NCBI RefSeq assembly: GCF_003351025.1
Contig: NZ_QPCG01000011.1
Coordinates: forward strand, 1 to 64,000
Direction: 5' to 3'
DNA: 64,000 nt
Source of the DNA: Mucilaginibacter endophyticus
GTDB taxonomy: Bacteria > Bacteroidota > Bacteroidia > Sphingobacteriales > Sphingobacteriaceae
The position numbers and the translations under genes were made by a program. Below, piece by piece: positions 1,273 through 11,939 of the stretch (positions are counted from its first letter, which is position 1; every line of letters begins with the position of its first letter). Below the pieces are notes generated by a model. That model saw only the letters and a list, made by a program, of their open reading frames with translations, did no database searches and was not told where the DNA came from.

Positions 1273-1962
1273 TCATGATATGGCACCAACCTCCGCAGCA
1301 ACCTTTTTGAGGTCTTCTTTATTAATTATTGTTTTTCTTTGGTAATGTTCCAAATGAAAGTTTTCGAGCTTTTGCAACAAATACTGTAATGTGAGTTTCT
1401 CAGCAAGGGTTAATTTGCCGGTGATGATCGTACCCACATAGCTGGTGTGCTCAAAGATCTCGAACAGTAAAGACCTGCCCTTTTCGGTTATCGCGATTAG
1501 CTTGCTTCTTTTGTCCTTTTCATCGTCCCACTGTTTCACCAGGCCGGAGGCAACGAGACGTCTGATAACTTCTGTACCAGATGCTTTTTCCTGTAAATTA
1601 TGGCTGATCAATTCACTTTTTGACAGAAATTGGTGGGTTAACAATATCGCTAATGCCGTAAAATCCTCGGCGGTTTGCAGTGGTGTGCCTTCCAGTGCTT
1701 TTTTTATATAAGATTTCGCGTAGCGGCTCATAAAAACAAACAAGCGGCCGATATTATTATCGAGCTGATAGGCAATATTCAAAGCGGTGCTGTCATTGTC
1801 GCCAAATCTAACTTCAGTACTATGATTATTATCGGCAGGCTCACCAACTTTATTCAACAGAAAACCTGTAAAATCCTGTAAAGACGCTTCCCGTCCCTGG
1901 TTTTCTTTTTCCAGTTCGGCTACAAGATCGATCAGTTGGTGAATAAGTTGGTATGATTTCAT
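1273..1962 (-). CDS. MarR-family transcriptional regulator
   Basis: This is a winged-helix regulator and the last gene of the carotenoid operon. The start chosen is the ATG at 1962 (MKSYQLIHQLIDL), giving 229 residues; an upstream extension would run into the preceding gene. The MarR fold is seen as a helical N-terminus, the recognition region around EVIRRLVASGLVKQW, and the wing DDEKDKRSKLIAITEKG. MarR proteins bind short palindromes as dimers and usually repress nearby genes until a ligand or oxidant releases them. A near-palindrome at the head of the operon (10551-10576) is a candidate target, which would make the operon autoregulated. The ligand cannot be read from the sequence. Confidence 0.85.
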   Translation of the reverse strand: MKSYQLIHQLIDLVAELEKENQGREASLQDFTGFLLNKVGEPADNNHSTEVRFGDNDSTALNIAYQLDNNIGRLFVFMSRYAKSYIKKALEGTPLQTAEDFTALAILLTHQFLSKSELISHNLQEKASGTEVIRRLVASGLVKQWDDEKDKRSKLIAITEKGRSLLFEIFEHTSYVGTIITGKLTLAEKLTLQYLLQKLENFHLEHYQRKTIINKEDLKKVAAEVGAIS

Positions 1963-1999: not shown

Positions 2000-3067
2000 T
2001 TAGTTCCTTTTACTGAGTTCCGGGTTTTGGTTTTTGAATGCTGCATAAGCTGCAAGGTAATTTTGCTTAGCATCTCCCTGCGGCTTAAAGCTTCTCAGCA
2101 GGTTCAGTATTCTGATCAGCCTCAATTTATAAGCGGGCAATTCAGGAGCATTAATCGCCAGCATATCAGCCATTTCTTTTCCAAGCAGGTAACGCATTAA
2201 GCCCAGGATATCGTTGGCAGTCGCCTTACTTTTATTCACCGAAAGAATATGAGCGGTTAGCGATCTGGTTAGTTCCTGTCCATGCGCAGAAACAGTGAAT
2301 TGCCTTCGTTTAATAATATTATCAAGTTGCTGCGCCTTTTTAGAATTTTCCGGGATCAGATCTTCATCTAAGCCCGATAAGTAACCTACCACTGCCCAGA
2401 TATGCATAAATGCTGCCTGATCTTCCTCGCTAACGCTGTAACCGAGCATTCGCAACCCGCGAATTACGATCAGCGAAAATGACAGGTTTGTTCCGGCCAT
2501 GTCTTCCTGGTTGATGGGAAATCCCCAGTTATCCTTCCATTTGCCGCTTTGCAGGGTGTAGTAACGAACGGCCGCATGCATGATCCGCACTTTTAAAATT
2601 TCCTCGAAAGCGATTCCGTCCTTACTGAAAGCATCCGGCCCCATTACTTCCCAAACAAAAACAGCGGTATCAAAAAGCCTTTTGGTAGTTTGCTTTCGGA
2701 TTAGCTCGGACAAGTATAACACCATTGCGCCATTGGCGGCATTATAACAATAGGGCAATGATAGCAACCCGAGCAAACTCAAAATGATCTCAGAATGCCG
2801 GGCAAAGAAAACAGCGCCGGTTTTCATCAGCCGTGGCTGTGCCCATGTGGGCAGTTCCGTAGCTTTATCAATAAAGGAAAAACCCGGAAAGGTATCTTGT
2901 ATTAAATTCAAGTGGAGAGTACCAGAAGCGCCACCCATCCAGTCCTGTAATTGCTTTTTTTTCGCCGGATCCCTAAAAATATAACGTATAAACTCATCCG
3001 CCTGCGCGTCGCCCAACAGTCGTTTACGGTCTAAAAGTTCATTGCTATATGAATTATGATTCCTCAT
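2000..3067 (-). CDS. MpaB/Lcp-type (DUF2236) haem oxygenase-like protein
   Basis: This 355-residue protein belongs to the DUF2236 family, which includes the rubber oxygenase Lcp and the fungal oxygenase MpaB that cuts a farnesyl side chain. The hallmark MHAAVRYY is present. Counting from the ATG at 3067, Arg130 in KRLFDT, Thr134 and His164 in MHAAV are spaced +4 and +34. This matches the Arg/Thr/His set I recall for Lcp (R164/T168/H198, His being the haem ligand). The Lys ligand of Lcp, one residue before the Thr, is Asp here. No signal peptide is seen, although the central region is hydrophobic. The start overlaps the preceding stop (TAATG). A role in cleaving a carotenoid or another polyprenoid is inference from context. 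Confidence 0.8.
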   Translation of the reverse strand: MRNHNSYSNELLDRKRLLGDAQADEFIRYIFRDPAKKKQLQDWMGGASGTLHLNLIQDTFPGFSFIDKATELPTWAQPRLMKTGAVFFARHSEIILSLLGLLSLPYCYNAANGAMVLYLSELIRKQTTKRLFDTAVFVWEVMGPDAFSKDGIAFEEILKVRIMHAAVRYYTLQSGKWKDNWGFPINQEDMAGTNLSFSLIVIRGLRMLGYSVSEEDQAAFMHIWAVVGYLSGLDEDLIPENSKKAQQLDNIIKRRQFTVSAHGQELTRSLTAHILSVNKSKATANDILGLMRYLLGKEMADMLAINAPELPAYKLRLIRILNLLRSFKPQGDAKQNYLAAYAAFKNQNPELSKRN

Positions 3068-4317: not shown

Positions 4318-4974
4318 TTACGTATTGAAGTTGACATATGTATTTAATAGATGGGGTTCAACACCGGGCTTGGCATAGGCGAGTTGCCCAACGGGTTGCG
4401 CAAGATAATAAGTATCCAAACCGGCCACGGTCATGGTTCTTGCTTTGCCGTGATCAGCTGTTCCATCCGGCCCGATCAATCCGTCTTCTGTCAGGATATG
4501 AACTATTTCACCAATTACAATGGTTGTTCCGTTAACCTCCATATCAATCATCTCACGCAGTTCCAGCCCTATGCGTATGTTGGATGCTGCAACAAAAGGC
4601 GCTTTAAAGCCATTCAAATAATGCTTTTTGAAATGGCAGGCATCAAACTCAGAAACGCCCGAAGGATAACTTGCACTGGTTTGATGTGCCTGTATATACC
4701 ATTCGGGCAGCACGTTATTGAGGGTGTATTGTCCTGTTGATCTGATATTACGCAGCGTATCATTGTGCTCACGTTCAGGCCGGATCACCATTCCGATAAG
4801 CGGCGGGTTGGCACCCAAATGGAAAACAGAACTGATGATACACAGGTTGGTGATACCATCGTTACCGGTAGTGCCCAAAAGATTCAAAGCCCGGTAGCCT
4901 ATCAAACTATTGATCAGGCTTGTCCGGTATTGCTTCTCCATCTGAAAGATCTGTTCGCTTTTTATATCCTGCAT
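4318..4974 (-). CDS. Flavin reductase-like (FMN-binding split barrel) protein
   Basis: A 218-residue protein of the flavin reductase/DIM6-NTAB family. Its order is typical: an N-terminal region with ITNLCIISSVFHLGANPPLIGMV, then RPEREHNDTLRNI and YTLNNVLPEWY, and a long C-terminal half with IVIGEIVHI. These proteins bind FMN and either reduce free flavin or act as flavoenzymes. It could supply reduced flavin or electrons to the neighbouring FAD enzyme. It starts one base after the SDR stop and abuts the next gene. Confidence 0.8.
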   Translation of the reverse strand: MQDIKSEQIFQMEKQYRTSLINSLIGYRALNLLGTTGNDGITNLCIISSVFHLGANPPLIGMVIRPEREHNDTLRNIRSTGQYTLNNVLPEWYIQAHQTSASYPSGVSEFDACHFKKHYLNGFKAPFVAASNIRIGLELREMIDMEVNGTTIVIGEIVHILTEDGLIGPDGTADHGKARTMTVAGLDTYYLAQPVGQLAYAKPGVEPHLLNTYVNFNT

Positions 4975-4975
4975 C

Positions 4976-5692
4976 TTAACTTGTTTTTAATTTACCTAAA
5001 CCACCATCCATGCCGATAACCTGCCCGGTCATCCAGCTGGCATCATCCGATAATAAAAAGGCGATCAGCCGGCTGCTATCTTCGGGTTGTCCTATCTTTC
5101 CTAAAGGATGGCGTTTAGCTGAGGCTTCCCGTTTTTCAGCTGTGCTCAACAAGGTTTGAGCGAGTGGCGTATCTGTTAACGACGGTGCAACCACGTTAAC
5201 CCGGACATGCTGGGCGGCAAGCTCGGCTGCCAAAGACAGGGCCACACCTTCAACCGCACCTTTTGCCGCTGCGATACTGGCATGGTAAGGCATGCCTGTT
5301 TTGGCGGCGACAGAACTGATCAACACGATAGATGAACCGGCGGCATTTTTTATAGGTTTAATAGCTTGCCGGATCATACGTGCTGCACCTAAAACATTCA
5401 GCTGGAAATCCTTCAAAAAGTCGTCATCAGTTAACCTGCTGAACGGTTTCAGCGTGATGCTGCCAACAGAATAAACCAGGCCATGCAATTGCCCTGGAAG
5501 GAACATTTCTACCGCCTCCAAATTTTCTAAAACGTCGGCTTTTAAAAAATGTACCTCTTCCGGCCACTCGGCTGATGCCGATCTTGATATCGTATAAATA
5601 TTTGCTTGCTGCTGATGAAGCAATTTAATCAGCGACAGGCCAATGCCGGAACTTCCACCGACTACCAGGATATTTTTTCCGTTGAAATTCAT
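4976..5692 (-). CDS. Short-chain dehydrogenase/reductase (SDR), atypical active site
   Basis: A 238-residue SDR. The cofactor motif VVGGSSGIGLSL lies near residues 10-21 and the C-terminal TGQVIGMDGGLG is standard. In the active-site region the sequence is PYHASIAAAKGAVEG. The catalytic Lys is present, but the position four residues before it is Ile, not the Tyr of the YxxxK motif. A Tyr lies eight residues before the Lys instead. This variant occurs in a subset of SDRs, so it may be functional. It overlaps folE by four bases (ATGA). A pterin-reducing role is possible because it follows folE, but this is inference. Confidence 0.85.
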   Translation of the reverse strand: MNFNGKNILVVGGSSGIGLSLIKLLHQQQANIYTISRSASAEWPEEVHFLKADVLENLEAVEMFLPGQLHGLVYSVGSITLKPFSRLTDDDFLKDFQLNVLGAARMIRQAIKPIKNAAGSSIVLISSVAAKTGMPYHASIAAAKGAVEGVALSLAAELAAQHVRVNVVAPSLTDTPLAQTLLSTAEKREASAKRHPLGKIGQPEDSSRLIAFLLSDDASWMTGQVIGMDGGLGKLKTS

Positions 5693-6372
5693 GATCCGAT
5701 ATACTTTAAAAATTCATTCTTAGTTTCCATATTTAAAAACTGTCCGCTATATTCAGCGGTAATCGTGGTGCTGCCGGCGTCTCTTATACCACGACTGGAT
5801 ACGCAATGGTGGTGCGCATCTATGATAACCGCGACATCTTTGGTGCCCAATGCTTCTTTGAGCATATTGGCTATTTGCATGGTGAGCCTTTCCTGCACTT
5901 GCGGCCTTTGCGAACAGTACTGAACAATTCTGTTCAGCTTTGATAAACCGATCACCTGCCCGTTACTGATATAGGCAACGTGGGCTTTACCCACAATAGG
6001 TACAAAGTGGTGCTCACAATTGCTAAATACAGCGATATTCCGTTCCACCAACATCTGGTTATAGTTGAATGGATTTTTGAATAAAGTGGGTTTGGGTTTA
6101 TGAGCAGGGTTCAAGCCGCTGAAGATCTCCTTCACGTACATTTTAGCCACCCGCTTAGGCGTATCTTTCAAACTGTCATCTTCCATATCCATTCCCAAAG
6201 TTTCCATGATCGCTGTAAAATGTTTGGCAATCAGTTCCATTTTGGTATCATCGTCCAGTTCAAAAGCGTCAGGACGGAGTGGGGTGTCGAAGGCAGCATG
6301 ATAATGATCCTGCTCCAGATCTGTTACCACCCGCGCTAAAGTTAAGTCATTCGGTATTTCGTTTTTTAGCAT
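5689..6372 (-). CDS. folE: GTP cyclohydrolase I
   Basis: This 227-residue protein is FolE, which converts GTP to 7,8-dihydroneopterin triphosphate, the first step of folate and tetrahydrobiopterin synthesis. Visible motifs are TPKRVAKMY, the zinc ligand region CEHHFVPI, GLSKLNRIVQYC, QVQERLT and HHHCVSSRGIRD, all in the usual order. Length is normal. It overlaps lycopene cyclase by seven bases and the SDR by four, so it is translated as part of the pigment operon. This placement suggests an extra, condition-specific pterin supply, for example for a photolyase antenna cofactor or a pterin-dependent enzyme. Confidence 0.95.
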   Translation of the reverse strand: MLKNEIPNDLTLARVVTDLEQDHYHAAFDTPLRPDAFELDDDTKMELIAKHFTAIMETLGMDMEDDSLKDTPKRVAKMYVKEIFSGLNPAHKPKPTLFKNPFNYNQMLVERNIAVFSNCEHHFVPIVGKAHVAYISNGQVIGLSKLNRIVQYCSQRPQVQERLTMQIANMLKEALGTKDVAVIIDAHHHCVSSRGIRDAGSTTITAEYSGQFLNMETKNEFLKYIGS

Positions 6373-7124
6373 GAAATTGTTTTAACATAAGTTAAAGAGC
6401 TTTTGCTATTTATCGCCTTTCTCTGATTTTTAAACCAAGGGTAAAACCTCGCGCTTAAACCTGAATAGATCATTACATTTAGTAAGATCAAATCCATGCC
6501 ATAAAAAATATCCTCAACGGGAATGGTCAAAATACGTAAGCCTGTAATATGCGCCGGGTTGTACCAAACTACCGGGTTTTCCAGGCCGGTGCCAGTCAGC
6601 AAACCATTCACAATGAGAAAAGGTAGTAACAACAGCAAGTAAGCATTATAAAACATTGACAGCCAGTTTACTTTTAAAATAAACTGTGCGGTAAAAAGTA
6701 AGATAGTTAAAGCAGCGAAAGTGTAACACGTGTAATGTTGTTTATGAAACCAGATTGCCATAAATAAAGAAAGGGCTATTAGTAATGAGCTAATGATAAT
6801 CTGGTAACGGGCAGATATCTTTTTTTTGATCATTACATTTAAACAAGCATAAGTGAACACACATGAGTAAGGGATAAAAAAAAAGAACAACACTTCTTCA
6901 ACAGGCAAGTTGCCGATGTAGATGCCTGTGAGGTAAACAGGATTAAAGCCCCATATTTTTAAGTGAGTGAAATACATATCCCAGGCAATAAATATTCCTC
7001 CTGTTATGAACATTGCCGGAAAAAGTGAACGCCAGTTTCTATAAAACTTCAGGCTGGGATGAAATGAAAAAAGAAAGGGCACCAGCACCGAAAAAAGATT
7101 GATTAACAGATATGTAAATCTCAT
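6366..7124 (-). CDS. Lycopene cyclase, fused CrtYc-Yd type
   Basis: A 252-residue integral membrane protein with about six or seven hydrophobic segments. It holds two copies of the heterodimeric-type lycopene cyclase domain: the first with IYIGNLPVEEVLFFFF near residue 70 and the second with ILTIPVEDIFYGMDLILL near residue 210. These PxE(E/D) motifs are the family signature. It should cyclise the ends of lycopene to beta-carotene. It overlaps crtZ by four bases and folE by seven. Confidence 0.9.
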   Translation of the reverse strand: MRFTYLLINLFSVLVPFLFSFHPSLKFYRNWRSLFPAMFITGGIFIAWDMYFTHLKIWGFNPVYLTGIYIGNLPVEEVLFFFFIPYSCVFTYACLNVMIKKKISARYQIIISSLLIALSLFMAIWFHKQHYTCYTFAALTILLFTAQFILKVNWLSMFYNAYLLLLLPFLIVNGLLTGTGLENPVVWYNPAHITGLRILTIPVEDIFYGMDLILLNVMIYSGLSARFYPWFKNQRKAINSKSSLTYVKTISC

Positions 7125-7591
7125 GCCGGGTTGTTTTTTGAAGTATTACGGAAATATTTCCAGGATACCCATAACATACCGAAGCTTTCGCCGTCATATT
7201 TACCCGTATGCTTATGGTGCATTTTGTGCGCCCGGCGGATGGCTTTCAGGTAACGGTTCTCTGAATTACGCAGCACTTTTATCCGCTGATGGATAAACAG
7301 GTCGTGTACAACAAAGTAACAAGCGCCATAAAGCGTTATGCCTGTGCCGATGCAAGTGCATACCGGCAAATGATACAGCGCTCCTGCCGCAAGGCAAGCC
7401 ATGCCGGGAAGCGCGAAGATCAGGAAGAACAAGTCGTTACGTTCCAGAAAGCCATCATGTTCTTTCAGGTGGTGATCGCGGTGCAGCGGCCAGAAAATAC
7501 CATGCATCATATATTTGTGGGTTAACCACGCCACACCTTCCATTCCTGAAAATGCAGTTATTACAATAGCAATGTTAATGAGCAAATTCAT
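7121..7591 (-). CDS. crtZ: Beta-carotene 3-hydroxylase (CrtZ, fatty acid hydroxylase superfamily)
   Basis: A di-iron membrane hydroxylase of 156 residues from the ATG at 7591 (MNLLINIAIV). A longer frame exists but would overlap idi. The His clusters are HKYMMHG, HRDHH, HDLFIHQR and HKMHHKH, as expected for CrtZ. It should add 3-hydroxyl groups to beta-carotene, giving cryptoxanthin and zeaxanthin. The gene follows idi by one base and overlaps the cyclase by ATGA. Confidence 0.92.
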   Translation of the reverse strand: MNLLINIAIVITAFSGMEGVAWLTHKYMMHGIFWPLHRDHHLKEHDGFLERNDLFFLIFALPGMACLAAGALYHLPVCTCIGTGITLYGACYFVVHDLFIHQRIKVLRNSENRYLKAIRRAHKMHHKHTGKYDGESFGMLWVSWKYFRNTSKNNPA

Positions 7592-7592
7592 T

Positions 7593-8114
7593 TTAAATAA
7601 TTTGACGGTAGATTTCCAATACTTGTTCCAGGCATATTTTAAACCAGGCTGTATATTGTTCAGGCTGTTCCAATAATTCAACAATTAACAAATCGGTATC
7701 TATATACCTAAAGCCGGCCACTTCCGCAGGATTTGGCAACGGCAACTCATCGCTGATGCCCATAAAAACATGATCGTATTCATTTTCGATTAAGCCGTTC
7801 GCAAATTCATGACGATAGCTGAACTGAAATAACTCTGTCAGTTCACAATCCATTCCCATTTCTTCCTGCAAACGTCTATGAGCGGCATTCTGTGTAGTTT
7901 CGCCTGCACGCGGATGACTACAGCACGTGTTAGTCCAAAGCCCGCCTGAATGGTATTTATCCAAATCCCTTCGCTGAAGCAGCAACTGGCCTTTGCTGTT
8001 GAATACAAAAACGGAGAAGGCGCGGTGCAGCGTTCCTGATATATGAGCATCCATCTTATCTATTTCACCAATAGCGTTACCGGCTGCATCAACTATAATT
8101 ATGTTATCTTCCAA
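7593..8114 (-). CDS. idi: Isopentenyl-diphosphate delta-isomerase, type I
   Basis: A 173-residue Nudix-fold enzyme that interconverts IPP and DMAPP, feeding carotenoid precursor synthesis. It shows the Cys active site in NTCCSHPRAGE, the Nudix-like helix RRLQEEMGM and the acidic motif NEYDHVF. Length is normal for the bacterial type. It lies 38 bases after crtB. No GGPP synthase gene is present in the window, so prenyl elongation must be encoded elsewhere. Confidence 0.93.
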   Translation of the reverse strand: MEDNIIIVDAAGNAIGEIDKMDAHISGTLHRAFSVFVFNSKGQLLLQRRDLDKYHSGGLWTNTCCSHPRAGETTQNAAHRRLQEEMGMDCELTELFQFSYRHEFANGLIENEYDHVFMGISDELPLPNPAEVAGFRYIDTDLLIVELLEQPEQYTAWFKICLEQVLEIYRQII

Positions 8115-8152: not shown

Positions 8153-8989
8153 TTAAAGCACATTCAACTTGTACCTTACCAATGAATCGAACATTAAATA
8201 AAACTTGTGCCCGTTTGATACCCGTATCCTTTCCAACATTACTTTTTCGGCCGATACCTTCGCTATCTTCCCGAATAGTTTTTTATAATAAACGTAAGCC
8301 AGATAAACACCCTTGCGGCATGAACGCGGCAATTCCCTGATCCCTTCCAGGGCTTCGTTAAATTCTGAAAGAATATCCTGTTCTATTGTACGCTTATTCT
8401 CATCTGAGAAGGCAGACAGGTTAACATTCGGAAAGTAGGTGCGATTCAGTTGCTGATAGTCGGCGCTTACATCCCTGAGAAAATTCACTTTTTGAAAAGC
8501 CGACCCCAATTTCATCGCAGGCATTCTCAAGCGCTCAAATTCGTCTTTATTACCGTTGGTGAATACGTGCAGGCACATCAGCCCCACTACCTGGGCAGAA
8601 CCCATGATATACTGATCGTATTTCTCTGCATCATACAATTGTTCACCAAGGTCCATTTCCATACTGTTTAAAAACTGCGTAATGAGGTGATGTTCAATTT
8701 TGTACTGGTTTACTACCTGTTGAAATGAATTAATTACCGGGTTGATACTTATGCCGCGCTCTATAGCCGTAAAGGTATCCGCCTTCAATTCGGCAAGCAT
8801 AAGTGATTTCGGGTAATCATGGAAACTATCTACAATCTCATCGGCTAATCTCACAAAGCCGTAAATAGCATGTATAGGATTACGTACTTCCTTGTTAAAA
8901 AATAATATCCCCAGGGAAAAGCTGGTACTATAAAGCCGGGTTGTTTCCCTGCTGCACGTAGCAGATAAGGTATCAAATCGTTCTTTCAT
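8153..8989 (-). CDS. crtB: Phytoene synthase
   Basis: This 278-residue squalene/phytoene synthase family member should condense two GGPP to phytoene. Both Asp-rich motifs are present: ADEIVDSFHD near residue 50 and FLRDVSADYQQLNRTYFP near residue 175, the latter being the NFLRD-x3-D signature. The start overlaps the crtI stop by four bases (ATGA), so the pair is translationally coupled. Confidence 0.95.
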   Translation of the reverse strand: MKERFDTLSATCSRETTRLYSTSFSLGILFFNKEVRNPIHAIYGFVRLADEIVDSFHDYPKSLMLAELKADTFTAIERGISINPVINSFQQVVNQYKIEHHLITQFLNSMEMDLGEQLYDAEKYDQYIMGSAQVVGLMCLHVFTNGNKDEFERLRMPAMKLGSAFQKVNFLRDVSADYQQLNRTYFPNVNLSAFSDENKRTIEQDILSEFNEALEGIRELPRSCRKGVYLAYVYYKKLFGKIAKVSAEKVMLERIRVSNGHKFYLMFDSLVRYKLNVL

Positions 8990-10503
8990 TTATTGTCGAG
9001 ATATTGAATAAGCAATTTAGCGGAAACCTTACCTGAAATAATTGAAGGTGGCACCCCCGGCCCCGGGACGGTAAGTTGCCCGGTGTAAAAGAGGTTTTTT
9101 ACCTTTTTATTTTTGATGGAAGGTTTAAGATGAGCGGTTTGCATTAGCGTGTTGGCCAGGCCATAAGCGTTCCCTTTAAATGAATTATAATCTGTTTTGA
9201 AGTCATTCACACAGTAGCTTTTCTTATAGTCAATCGCGCTTCTGATGAACACTCCGGTATAAGCTTCCAGCCGTTCCATAATCAATTCAAAATATTCCGC
9301 TCTTAACGCCTCGGTATCTTGTATACCCGGTGCCAGCGGAATCAGGATAAATAAATTTTCATGTCCATCCGGGGCTACGCTGTCATCTGATTTTGAAGGG
9401 CAGCAAACATAAAAAAGCGGCTTTGTCGGCCATTTTGGATCTTTGTAAATCTCTGTTGCATGCAACTTTAAATCTGCATCAAAAAACAAAGTGTGGTGTT
9501 TCAGCTTTTCTATTTTGAGGTTTACCCCCAAATAAAAGATCAGGCTCGAAGGAGCCATTACCCTTTTTTGCCAATAGTCTGCACTATAGTTCCTGTATTC
9601 TTCATCAAGTAGTTGTTGCTCCACATGATGATAATCTGCCGATGCAATGACGCCATCGTAATAATCTTCGCCATATTTGGTGCCAACCTTTTCGATCTTT
9701 CCATTTGCAACCTGTAAATGGCTTATCGGTGAGTTGGTATGAAAAACTACTCCCTGTGCTTCGCATACTTTTTGCATAGCTTCGATAACTTTGCCAAAAC
9801 CGCCTTCAGGATACCATGTACCAAGTTTTAATCCGGCATAATTCATTAAACTGTATAAAGCGGGCGTATCTTGTGGCATTGCGCCGAGGAAAAGCACCGG
9901 AAATTCCATTAATGTAATTAAACGAGGATCTTTAAAAAATCGCCTGACATGCTTACTAAATGAAGTAAAAACCTGCAGTTTTAAAGCCCCTTTGATTAGA
10001 TCCCAATCGGCAAACTCTAATAAAGAAAGCCCTGGTTTGTGAACCAATTTATTCATCCCGGTGCGATATTTATAGGCGGCTTCTTCTAAGAAAAGTTTAA
10101 GCTGTATGGCGCTTCCAGGCTCTATCGATTCAAAAAGCGATTCTAAAGCAGCGTAGTCCGCAGGTACGTTTAAGACATCGCTTTTTCCGAATACAATAGT
10201 GAACCCGGGATCAAGTTGTTTCAATTCGTAAAAATCGGACGCTTTATAACCGAAATGATTGAAAAAGTCCTCAAACACTTCCGGCATCCAGTACCAGCTC
10301 GGCCCCATATCAAAAGTGTAACCTTCCTCAACCATTTGACGGGAGCGGCCTCCTATGTCAATGTTTTTTTCATAAATATTGACACGGTGCCCTGCTTTGG
10401 CTAAATAGGCGGCCGCACTTAGGCCGGCATATCCGGAACCTATCACAGCGACAGCAAATTTTTTACCAGGAATAGTATGATCGATATGATTTGGCTTTAA
10501 CAT
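8986..10503 (-). CDS. crtI: Phytoene desaturase
   Basis: First gene of the operon. From the ATG at 10503 (MLKPNHID) it encodes 505 residues. The FAD-binding motif is VIGSGYAGLSAAAYLA, followed by YEKNIDIGGRSRQM, and the C-terminus has FYTGQLTVPGPGVPPS, diagnostic of bacterial CrtI. It should convert phytoene to lycopene. A longer frame begins with TTG at 10545, but that codon lies inside the likely -7 promoter box, so the ATG is preferred. Confidence 0.95.
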   Translation of the reverse strand: MLKPNHIDHTIPGKKFAVAVIGSGYAGLSAAAYLAKAGHRVNIYEKNIDIGGRSRQMVEEGYTFDMGPSWYWMPEVFEDFFNHFGYKASDFYELKQLDPGFTIVFGKSDVLNVPADYAALESLFESIEPGSAIQLKLFLEEAAYKYRTGMNKLVHKPGLSLLEFADWDLIKGALKLQVFTSFSKHVRRFFKDPRLITLMEFPVLFLGAMPQDTPALYSLMNYAGLKLGTWYPEGGFGKVIEAMQKVCEAQGVVFHTNSPISHLQVANGKIEKVGTKYGEDYYDGVIASADYHHVEQQLLDEEYRNYSADYWQKRVMAPSSLIFYLGVNLKIEKLKHHTLFFDADLKLHATEIYKDPKWPTKPLFYVCCPSKSDDSVAPDGHENLFILIPLAPGIQDTEALRAEYFELIMERLEAYTGVFIRSAIDYKKSYCVNDFKTDYNSFKGNAYGLANTLMQTAHLKPSIKNKKVKNLFYTGQLTVPGPGVPPSIISGKVSAKLLIQYLDNK

Positions 10504-10542
10504 TAGGTATTTAAGGAAACAGGTTAATTTGAATTGTTGAAT

Positions 10543-10576
10543 CAAATATAATTCAATAATATACTATATTTTGAAT
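10543..10576 (-). promoter_or_regulatory. crt operon promoter with candidate MarR operator
   Basis: On the minus strand TATATTTG (10543-10550) fits the Bacteroidota -7 consensus TAnnTTTG and would place the transcription start about 30 bases before crtI. Immediately upstream lies an inverted repeat, 10551-10576: left arm ATTCAATAATATA, centre C, right arm TATATTTTGAAT, perfect except for one extra base in one arm. ATTCAA/TTGAAT arms are typical of MarR-family sites. A bound dimer would cover the -33 region. No clear -33 TTG was found. Confidence 0.6.
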
Positions 10577-11030
10577 AATGGTGTATTTTTGTACTAATTC
10601 AGAAAGGTTTTAAATTGCATTTGCACAAACATTTTTTACTGTTGATCTTATTTTTACCTGATAGCTTTGTAAACACTGAGAGCTTGGAGGAAGTAGTTGC
10701 CGCAGCATCGCCCGGTGTTAAGCAAGAATGTGAAGCCAGTTGAGAAAGCTTTTAGGAACGAGCATAGTTGGCGAAAAGGGTTTAGGCTTGACAAAATATA
10801 ACACGGGTTTTATATAAAGAACATATTTTTAGAATATACAAAACATTTACAGCCAATCTGATCAAAAAATCCATTTAATAAAACAGCGTGTATCGAATGT
10901 GGAACACTTTGCTATCTTACTATAGGTAAAAGCAATTGTATTTTCCTTAAATCGGCTTCGTAAATTATTTTAGTTTTTTTCTGAGCCTTTGGATACGCTT
11001 TTGATATACTTTTCTGAATAAACGCATCAT
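10577..11030. other. Intergenic region with a possible small peptide
   Basis: This spacer separates the leftward crt operon from the rightward receiver gene. A plus-strand frame at 10621-10743 starts with TTG and encodes 40 residues: an N-terminal hydrophobic run (HFLLLILFL) followed by an acidic, Ala-rich tail ending ECEAS. It has the shape of a tiny secreted peptide, but without an ATG or a homologue it may be chance. The rest is AT-rich. Confidence 0.3.
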
Positions 11031-11393
11031 ATGTCTAAAAGAATAATGGTAATTGACGACAACGAGGATATCCTTGAAATATTGAACATTGTATTCCAGG
11101 ATTGCGGATACGATGTCATATTGTCCAATACAGGCGAGGCTGCCCACAACATCGTGGTGATTCACCCGGACCTTATTTTGCTGGATGTGAATATTGTTGG
11201 GTCCGAGAAAACGGGGGCGGAAATTTGCCGTGAGATCAAATCTAATTACCTGACCGCTAATCTGCCTGTGATGCTGGTTTCAGCCGAAACCGACCTTGAC
11301 CTGATAGCAGTTGGTTGTGGCGCTAATTCATTTGTAAGAAAACCATTTGACATCTATGAATTATTGATGCATGTTAAACAATACCTATCTTAG
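11031..11393 (+). CDS. Single-domain response regulator (receiver only)
   Basis: A 120-residue CheY-like receiver with no output domain. Key residues are present: acidic pair in VIDDNEDI near residue 9, phospho-acceptor Asp in LILLDVNI near residue 56, Ser in VMLVSAE and Lys in VRKPFDI. Such proteins act by protein contact in phosphorelays. It lies 21 bases before a DUF892 gene, so the two may share a transcript. No histidine kinase is adjacent. Confidence 0.9.
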   Translation: MSKRIMVIDDNEDILEILNIVFQDCGYDVILSNTGEAAHNIVVIHPDLILLDVNIVGSEKTGAEICREIKSNYLTANLPVMLVSAETDLDLIAVGCGANSFVRKPFDIYELLMHVKQYLS

Positions 11394-11414
11394 CAGAAAG
11401 ATTAAACAGCTATC

Positions 11415-11939
11415 ATGGAAAAACAACCCGGCGGATCTGCTCAAAAAATCAGTCTGGCAAAACAAGAACTGAAGTCGTTTTTTATCAGTCACCTTAATAA
11501 AATTTACGCTGCCAAGGCTCATTTGGTTTCGAAGCTACCGCAGATTGCCAATGAAGCGCATTTTAGGGATCTTCGACATGCCATAATAGAAACAATTGAG
11601 GATGTGGAAAAACAAATGGCGCGGATGGAAATGATATTCGCTTTGCTGGACAGCAACATCGATCCCGGAAATTTTAGCGGATTAGCCGGTTTGGTCGATG
11701 ACGCGTTTGAGGATATTAAACTGCATGAAAAGAAACATGAGCTCAGAGATATGTCCATACTGTTTTATCTGCACAATATCGAAAGCATGGAAATGGCCTC
11801 ATTTCAGATTCTACGAATAGCTGCAGTTAAACTGAAAAACAACCAGATTAAACAACTCATCCAGGAAAACTATGATGAAGCCAAGGCTGACAGGACACTA
11901 ATGCTGCTGATTGCGGCTAAATACATTACTTCGGTTTAG
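11415..11939 (+). CDS. DUF892 (YciE/YciF) ferritin-like protein
   Basis: A 174-residue all-helical protein. The opening FFISHLNKIYAAKAHLVSKLPQ and the helix pattern ending in YDEAKADRTLMLLIAAKYI match the YciE/YciF family, ferritin-like four-helix proteins induced by stress. Family members bind a di-metal site, but the substrate is unknown. It follows the receiver gene by 21 bases. Confidence 0.75.
   Translation: MEKQPGGSAQKISLAKQELKSFFISHLNKIYAAKAHLVSKLPQIANEAHFRDLRHAIIETIEDVEKQMARMEMIFALLDSNIDPGNFSGLAGLVDDAFEDIKLHEKKHELRDMSILFYLHNIESMEMASFQILRIAAVKLKNNQIKQLIQENYDEAKADRTLMLLIAAKYITSV

Follow-up and report, generated by a model that had tools for sequence, protein, structure and literature searches.

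Among the closest described systems is the rubber oxygenase LcpK30 (PDB 5o1l/5o1m), in which His198 is described as the proximal haem ligand and activity as requiring Arg164 and Thr168 (PMC6311187, PMC5522427). The distal haem ligand of Lcp is reported to be Lys167, a residue kept in 59% of 495 Lcps (PMC5522427), and changes of Glu148 drastically lower activity (PMC5522427, PMC6311187). The fungal, ER-bound enzyme MpaB cleaves a C=C bond of a farnesyl chain in mycophenolic acid synthesis, and C=C bonds are also the target of bacterial haem oxygenases (Purwani, 2024), both as described in PMC12724181. The structure of t-anethole oxygenase, an enzyme with an aryl-alkene substrate (PDB 8s1j), presumably stems from the 2024 work; in a 2013 paper the P. 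putida t-anethole oxygenase is called a flavoprotein, and thus haem in this enzyme is not undisputed. In terms of gene content, a described parallel is provided by light-inducible gene sets of Pseudomonas (PplR/PmlR, LitR type), which, as given in PMC9758184, include folE, a short-chain dehydrogenase/reductase (SDR), a FAD-dependent oxidoreductase, and a photolyase.

Here, we consider a 64,000-nucleotide stretch of Mucilaginibacter endophyticus DNA (the window), for which an earlier note had proposed that a DUF2236 oxygenase, here called P0001, belongs to a carotenoid operon. P0001 has in common with LcpK30 its membership of PF09995, its whole-length fold, and the R/T/H spacing of the haem pocket. 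It differs in sharing 21% identity, in lacking a signal peptide, in having Asp133 at the place of Lys167 and Gly opposite Glu148, and in sitting in a gene run with carotenoid and other genes. MpaB, likened here by name and description, is named in the Pfam domain of P0001 and is an isoprenoid C=C cleaver; unlike P0001, it is fungal and ER-bound. With the Pseudomonas light sets, likened by family name, the window has folE, SDR, and FAD oxidoreductase in common; PMC9758184, in its accessible text, makes no mention of a DUF2236 protein, and the window run instead has marR after it.

A minus-strand gene for a DUF2236 oxygenase

P0001 (2000..3067, minus strand; 355 aa) is assigned to the DUF2236/PF09995 (MpaB/Lcp-like) oxygenases by Pfam, by sequence match in the PDB, and by fold; the earlier note had the family and coordinates right and gave no strand. 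Its start is an ATG at 3067, the A of which is shared with the stop codon of the upstream gene (TAATG). PF09995 (MPAB_Lcp_cat), the sole Pfam family in P0001 in a search at E 0.01, matches with E 3e-17 and 63.9 bits (cut-off 23), and LcpK30 is matched in the PDB with E 2.5e-18 (phmmer), or 5.3e-25 with a profile; judged as sequence matches, both are far above chance. On the plus strand, the same frame is riddled with stops, which together with the PF09995 match rules out a chance ORF or a wrong strand. Among the named relatives listed, the nearest is that of Mucilaginibacter gossypiicola, which is 98% identical.

At the N-terminus of P0001, no hydrophobic stretch and no signal peptide were seen. 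Only two of 69 homologs pass a crude hydropathy test for a signal peptide, both with starts that appear over-extended by eye, and a loose twin-arginine pattern occurs in one of the 69, placed outside the start. Lacking a signal peptide, P0001 should act inside the cell, unlike Lcp.

An Lcp-type fold and constant residues of the putative haem pocket

The AlphaFold2 model of P0001, built from 23 sequences, has a mean pLDDT of 83.8 and a pTM of 0.86, with residues 111–125 below a pLDDT of 50. A Foldseek search with this model places Lcp at the top (E 5e-11), followed by t-anethole oxygenase (E 2e-3). VIA, which covers just the entries ranked by Foldseek (so that matching folds beyond those may exist), gives Z 30.3 over 328 residues for Lcp, Z 19.5 over 256 residues for t-anethole oxygenase, and Z 4.5 for the following entry; the structure prediction and Lcp alignment called for in the earlier note thus return an Lcp-type fold. 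The fold common with t-anethole oxygenase spans model residues 75–348, the first 74 residues being unaligned, at 12% identity. This likeness would fit an enzyme that cleaves a non-isoprenoid alkene (an aryl alkene or an unsaturated fatty acid), as does t-anethole oxygenase, and one Streptomyces homolog does have an oleate hydratase gene three genes upstream. However, Lcp is the closer match by both fold and sequence, and isoprenoid genes turn up repeatedly in the neighbourhood, albeit at a minority of the loci; we regard a non-isoprenoid substrate as quite unlikely.

A phmmer alignment pairs Arg130, Thr134, and His164 of P0001 with Arg164, Thr168, and His198 of LcpK30 at equal spacing (4 and 34), confirming the resemblance proposed in the earlier note; the motif MHAAVRYY, also pointed out there, corresponds to residues 163–170. 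R130, T134, R161, H164, and R168 are constant in 55/55 homologs (alignment of L033–L087), and a further 12, more distant rows retain R130 and T134 throughout and H164 in 11 cases (L016 has Ser in the alignment). The place of Lcp Lys167 is occupied by Asp133 in P0001 and by Asp or Glu in 55/55 homologs, and Glu148 is aligned with Gly in the same 55, in the stretch (111–125) where the model is of low confidence and where Glu121 is close in sequence. Because just 59% of Lcps keep Lys167, its absence is a weak test against the Lcp type. A constant R/T/H pocket with Lys167 replaced suggests that P0001 likely binds haem, with a distal side that would differ from that of Lcp, and, given that both Lys167 and Glu148 are unmatched, Lcp chemistry is not simply transferable to it. 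We rejected the reading of P0001 as a rubber oxygenase proper on account of the missing signal peptide and the replaced Lys167.

The gene run in the window

Along the minus strand, the genes are ordered crtI, crtB, idi, crtZ, lycopene cyclase, folE, SDR, flavin reductase, FAD oxidoreductase, and P0001, followed by marR. Gaps in the run are at most ~40 nt, or the genes overlap, and P0001 closes this ten-gene coupled run. The run begins with crtI (8986..10545; 720 bits for NCBIfam CrtID, whose cut-off is 640), crtB, a member of the squalene/phytoene synthase family (PF00494 by Pfam, with no NCBIfam model above cut-off; 8153..8989), and idi, encoding isopentenyl-diphosphate isomerase (7593..8114; Pfam/NCBIfam). 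The ORF of the crtZ-like hydroxylase (PF04116 by Pfam; 7121..7684) overlaps idi, and the true start probably lies within it, the ORFs of relatives being mostly ~156 aa; lycopene cyclase (PF18916 and TIGR03462, by Pfam and NCBIfam) follows at 6366..7124. Next come folE, encoding GTP cyclohydrolase I (5689..6372; above the NCBIfam cut-off), the SDR gene (PF13561 by Pfam; 4976..5692), the gene for a flavin reductase-like protein (PF01613 by Pfam; 4318..4974), and that for a FAD-dependent amine-oxidase-like oxidoreductase (PF01593; 3067..4317), whose best NCBIfam match, HpnE, is far under cut-off and whose predicted structure has a pLDDT of 57.7. These last four genes, which we refer to as the module, separate P0001 from its nearest crt gene, lycopene cyclase. 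After P0001 lies the marR-like regulator, also on the minus strand (1273..1962, with the start picked by eye; the listed ORF extends to 2073). All gene calls are mechanical (longest ORFs), with uncertain starts and small genes. The gene order agrees with the coupled operon as first described, to which the four module genes and the downstream marR are additions; no crtE is present in the window run.

Upstream of crtI, a divergent response regulator gene and a DUF892 (PF05974) gene occupy 11031–11939 of the window, and members of each of their clusters are found again at some other loci. Inspection of inverted repeats upstream of the runs gave no convincing shared MarR operator. Matches to what we take to be the Bacteroidota-type promoter pattern (2 versus 2.1 expected) and terminator-like sites (9 versus 9.9) are no more frequent than expected; sigma-70-like sites number 34 against 25.8 expected.

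Across the whole genome (7.5 Mb in 30 contigs), PF09995 matches three proteins: P0001, a short protein of 256 aa (L003) for which no solved relative was found, and a further copy, L038. This last (G000:C28:367214-368275), 74% identical to P0001, lies in a run of crtB, idi, flavin reductase, oxygenase, and marR, without crtI. A second crtI, 55% identical to the first, is found in a separate crt cluster (L116). No match to the RPE65-type family of classical carotenoid cleavage oxygenases (PF03055) was found in the genome or in P0001, and two control genomes did match. In a rhodopsin search of the same genome, the controls gave no match.

Oxygenase neighbourhoods across the order

Taken together with the crtI, crtB, crtZ, and lycopene cyclase genes in a coupled run, here and in several relatives, the lack of an RPE65 match would be in keeping with P0001 being a carotenoid cleavage enzyme proper, one that fills the role of an RPE65-type oxygenase and makes apocarotenoids from the operon's beta-carotene, zeaxanthin, or lycopene. 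The neighbourhoods of related genes bear on this reading. We sampled 300 genomes belonging to the same order as the window; a match to P0001 at E 1e-25 was found in 60, of which 50 reach ≥40% identity (one, G222, as a fragment), with 51 places in those 50 genomes. We examined 47 of the 51 loci, leaving out those in G097, G054, G075, and G222; the counts exclude ten matches at ~30–34% identity and short (~260 aa) family members, treat near-copies (e.g., L045/L046) separately, and enter statistics that ignore kinship. Within 9.5 kb of the oxygenase, marR is present in 20 of the 47 loci, flavin reductase in 19, FAD oxidoreductase in 17, SDR and folE in 16 each, idi in 13, crtB in 11, crtI in 8, and crtZ and lycopene cyclase in 7 each. 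At least one module gene is near the oxygenase in 25/47 loci, and any of crtB, crtI, crtZ, or lycopene cyclase in 11/47. The remaining 22 loci have no module gene, and crt genes are near in 0/22 of them, so the oxygenase can work without either. A crt neighbour, which the earlier note had suggested seeking in other Bacteroidota, is thus present in several Mucilaginibacter loci and one Pedobacter locus, but it is absent from 36 of the 47 and is labile: a quick tree with 68 homologs calls for 11 changes (shuffled mean 15.5), 5 of them forced by well-supported branches. Module linkage requires 8 changes on the same tree, and one locus outside the main tree group (L059) combines a complete module with marR but lacks crt.

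Module loci that lack the oxygenase serve for comparison. We fetched 22 of 24 FAD-oxidoreductase places away from the examined oxygenases (G319 and G153 were left out), and L119 was dropped from the counts since its FAD oxidoreductase is on another contig. Among loci with at least two module genes, crt is near in 10/20 with the oxygenase versus 4/15 without (p 0.30); the corresponding figures are 11/25 versus 4/21 for at least one module gene (p 0.11) and 10/16 versus 4/13 for at least three (p 0.14), kinship being ignored throughout. Excluded from the group without oxygenase is L149 (G222), which at 9468–9809 holds an oxygenase fragment (residues 237–350, 63% identity) beside FAD oxidoreductase and SDR; including it would give 4/22 (p 0.07) and 4/16 (p 0.18), so that its removal slightly weakens the trend for a crt–oxygenase tie and leaves the odds of the readings unchanged. 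Moreover, crt genes also occur beside the module without the oxygenase in L117, L123, L131, and, divergently, L121; divergent crt genes are likewise found in one locus with the oxygenase (L042). The oxygenase and crt each go with the module, and a direct tie between them is not significant, although the trend is towards one. Crt linkage alone was accordingly rejected as proof of a carotenoid substrate.

Co-occurrence at the level of whole genomes gives a similar picture. FAD oxidoreductase is found in 40/300 genomes, 25 of which are among the 50 that bear the oxygenase (p 6e-13, uncorrected for kinship and physical linkage). The crtI gene is present in 49/50 oxygenase-bearing genomes versus 211/250 others (by eye; p 0.006, kinship uncorrected), but with crtI in 260/300 genomes overall, this co-occurrence says little. 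Weighing these points, we consider carotenoid cleavage proper a possible but improbable role for P0001.

Relatives of the FAD oxidoreductase outside the order give mixed support for a link to crt. In S. atratus a crt cluster is present, and the SDR found there has no meaningful alignment with that of the window; in S. chartreusis no crt was found in 13 kb with S. atratus queries, and near the relatives in Bernardetia, Deinococcus, and Natronorubrum there is no crt annotation.

Two further arrangements were observed. In Mucilaginibacter sp. SMC90 (L103, ~9737–11105), pieces of crtB abut the oxygenase, marR is kept, and no module gene was found, which looks like an internal deletion. Separately, a conserved protein of 157–189 aa recurs in crt clusters, often beside crtB (L139:11589-12092 and 18 other loci); it is absent from the window run and has no Pfam match (L036, L139) or NCBIfam match (L139).

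Isoprenoid genes beside distant homologs

On plasmids, 11 loci were opened out of 28 records with an oxygenase match, and in 4 of these 11 (L153, L154, L156, and L157, all Streptomyces) a polyprenyl synthetase gene lies directly upstream of the oxygenase homolog; in a fifth, L160, one is annotated ~4.7 kb upstream. The same four loci also carry a small ORF annotated as polyprenyl synthetase. Such a position directly downstream of a polyprenyl synthetase gene may hint at what the family acts on. In two distant Bacteroidota loci, a gene of a Pyr4-like terpene cyclase cluster follows the DUF2236 gene (L091:10636-11310 and L088:10751-11413; PF25129 by Pfam on L091), and these may represent loci for terpenoids or meroterpenoids in bacteria. 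Upstream of the homologs in L060, L064, L070, and L072 lies a gene from an ABC1-kinase cluster (Pfam on L070); ABC1 kinases are linked to quinones. The remaining neighbours inspected showed no evident isoprenoid link. At L089:6387-11462, PF09995 is part of a 1692-aa protein that also has caspase (C14), GDSL lipase, and DUF5995 domains.

These neighbours, together with the farnesyl chain described as the MpaB substrate (PMC12724181) and the fact that module genes are near the oxygenase oftener than crt, are compatible with a different substrate: another prenyl lipid (a menaquinone side chain, a polyprenol, or an oxidised isoprenoid), trimmed or detoxified in photo-oxidative stress, with crt merely co-regulated. 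On the other side, the window run has no quinone or polyprenol gene, the neighbours vary between clades, and the ABC1–quinone link is general background. We consider this reading, too, possible but improbable.

Possible links of the module to light

The light-response set that the module recalls is represented in the window by folE, SDR, and FAD oxidoreductase, and in relatives by photolyase or B12-MerR genes. In L120–L122, genes of two photolyase-family clusters lie near SDR and FAD oxidoreductase, with flavin reductase also present in L120 and L121. In L117, a MerR-B12-binding cluster gene heads a run of crtI, crtB, idi, crtZ, lycopene cyclase, folE, SDR, and FAD oxidoreductase. Both assignments derive from family searches run on one member per cluster (L121, L139). 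The MerR-B12 member scores 81 bits versus a CarH cut-off of 400, so the protein is CarH-like only, and none of the genes called in the window's first 20 kb belongs to this cluster. In L048, L050, and L051, a DUF2805-cluster gene follows marR (Pfam on L050). The module thus appears to resemble known light-induced gene sets, and, by analogy, a role in light or photo-oxidative stress is our best guess for it.

Discussion

P0001 can be placed with good support in a family already known to cleave C=C bonds, and its genomic context is new to the literature searched: among titles and abstract openings, no paper was found on a linkage of DUF2236 to a carotenoid operon, and PMC9108482, in its accessible text, mentions carotenoid clusters and MpaB separately. 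From its computed family and fold, the constancy of its haem pocket, the absence of a signal peptide, and the gene order and its recurrence, we infer that P0001 is a cytoplasmic haem-b oxygenase that cleaves C=C bonds of an intracellular isoprenoid or polyene, as an optional part of a light or photo-oxidative-stress operon; we consider this reading somewhat more probable than its negation. The core of that operon would consist of folE, SDR, flavin reductase, FAD oxidoreductase, and marR, with P0001 as an optional part, and in this genome the same operon would also carry a second carotenoid gene set. In the most likely mechanism, His164 would hold ferrous haem b, which would bind O2; Arg130 and Thr134 would lie on the haem's distal face, and a hydrophobic alkene would be cut into two carbonyls, in the way described for Lcp, for MpaB, and for bacterial haem oxygenases (PMC12724181). 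A carotenoid or another polyprenyl lipid would be the candidate substrate. The SDR could process the resulting aldehydes, but its presence at loci lacking the oxygenase too means that the two are not dedicated partners.

The earlier proposal that P0001 cleaves a carotenoid or a long prenyl chain therefore stands in part: family, fold, pocket, crt linkage, and recurring isoprenoid neighbours favour it, and a carotenoid as the specific substrate does not follow from them. That a carotenoid is the substrate is a fair hypothesis, though one with a probability well below even. The fuller proposition, in which a DUF2236 haem oxygenase would be a light- or stress-induced carotenoid cleavage enzyme yielding apocarotenoids without the RPE65 type, and hence a second, unrelated family, we consider rather doubtful.

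Should the substrate indeed prove to be a carotenoid, apocarotenoids would have a second source in a haem-based enzyme family, and the known chemistry of DUF2236, which involves rubber and meroterpenoids, would extend to the turnover of pigments during light stress. Should another prenyl lipid be cleaved instead, the operon would still give direct access to a family for which few substrates are known. The pairings of DUF2236 genes with polyprenyl synthetase on Streptomyces plasmids and with a Pyr4-like terpene cyclase in Bacteroidota may serve as pointers to further loci.
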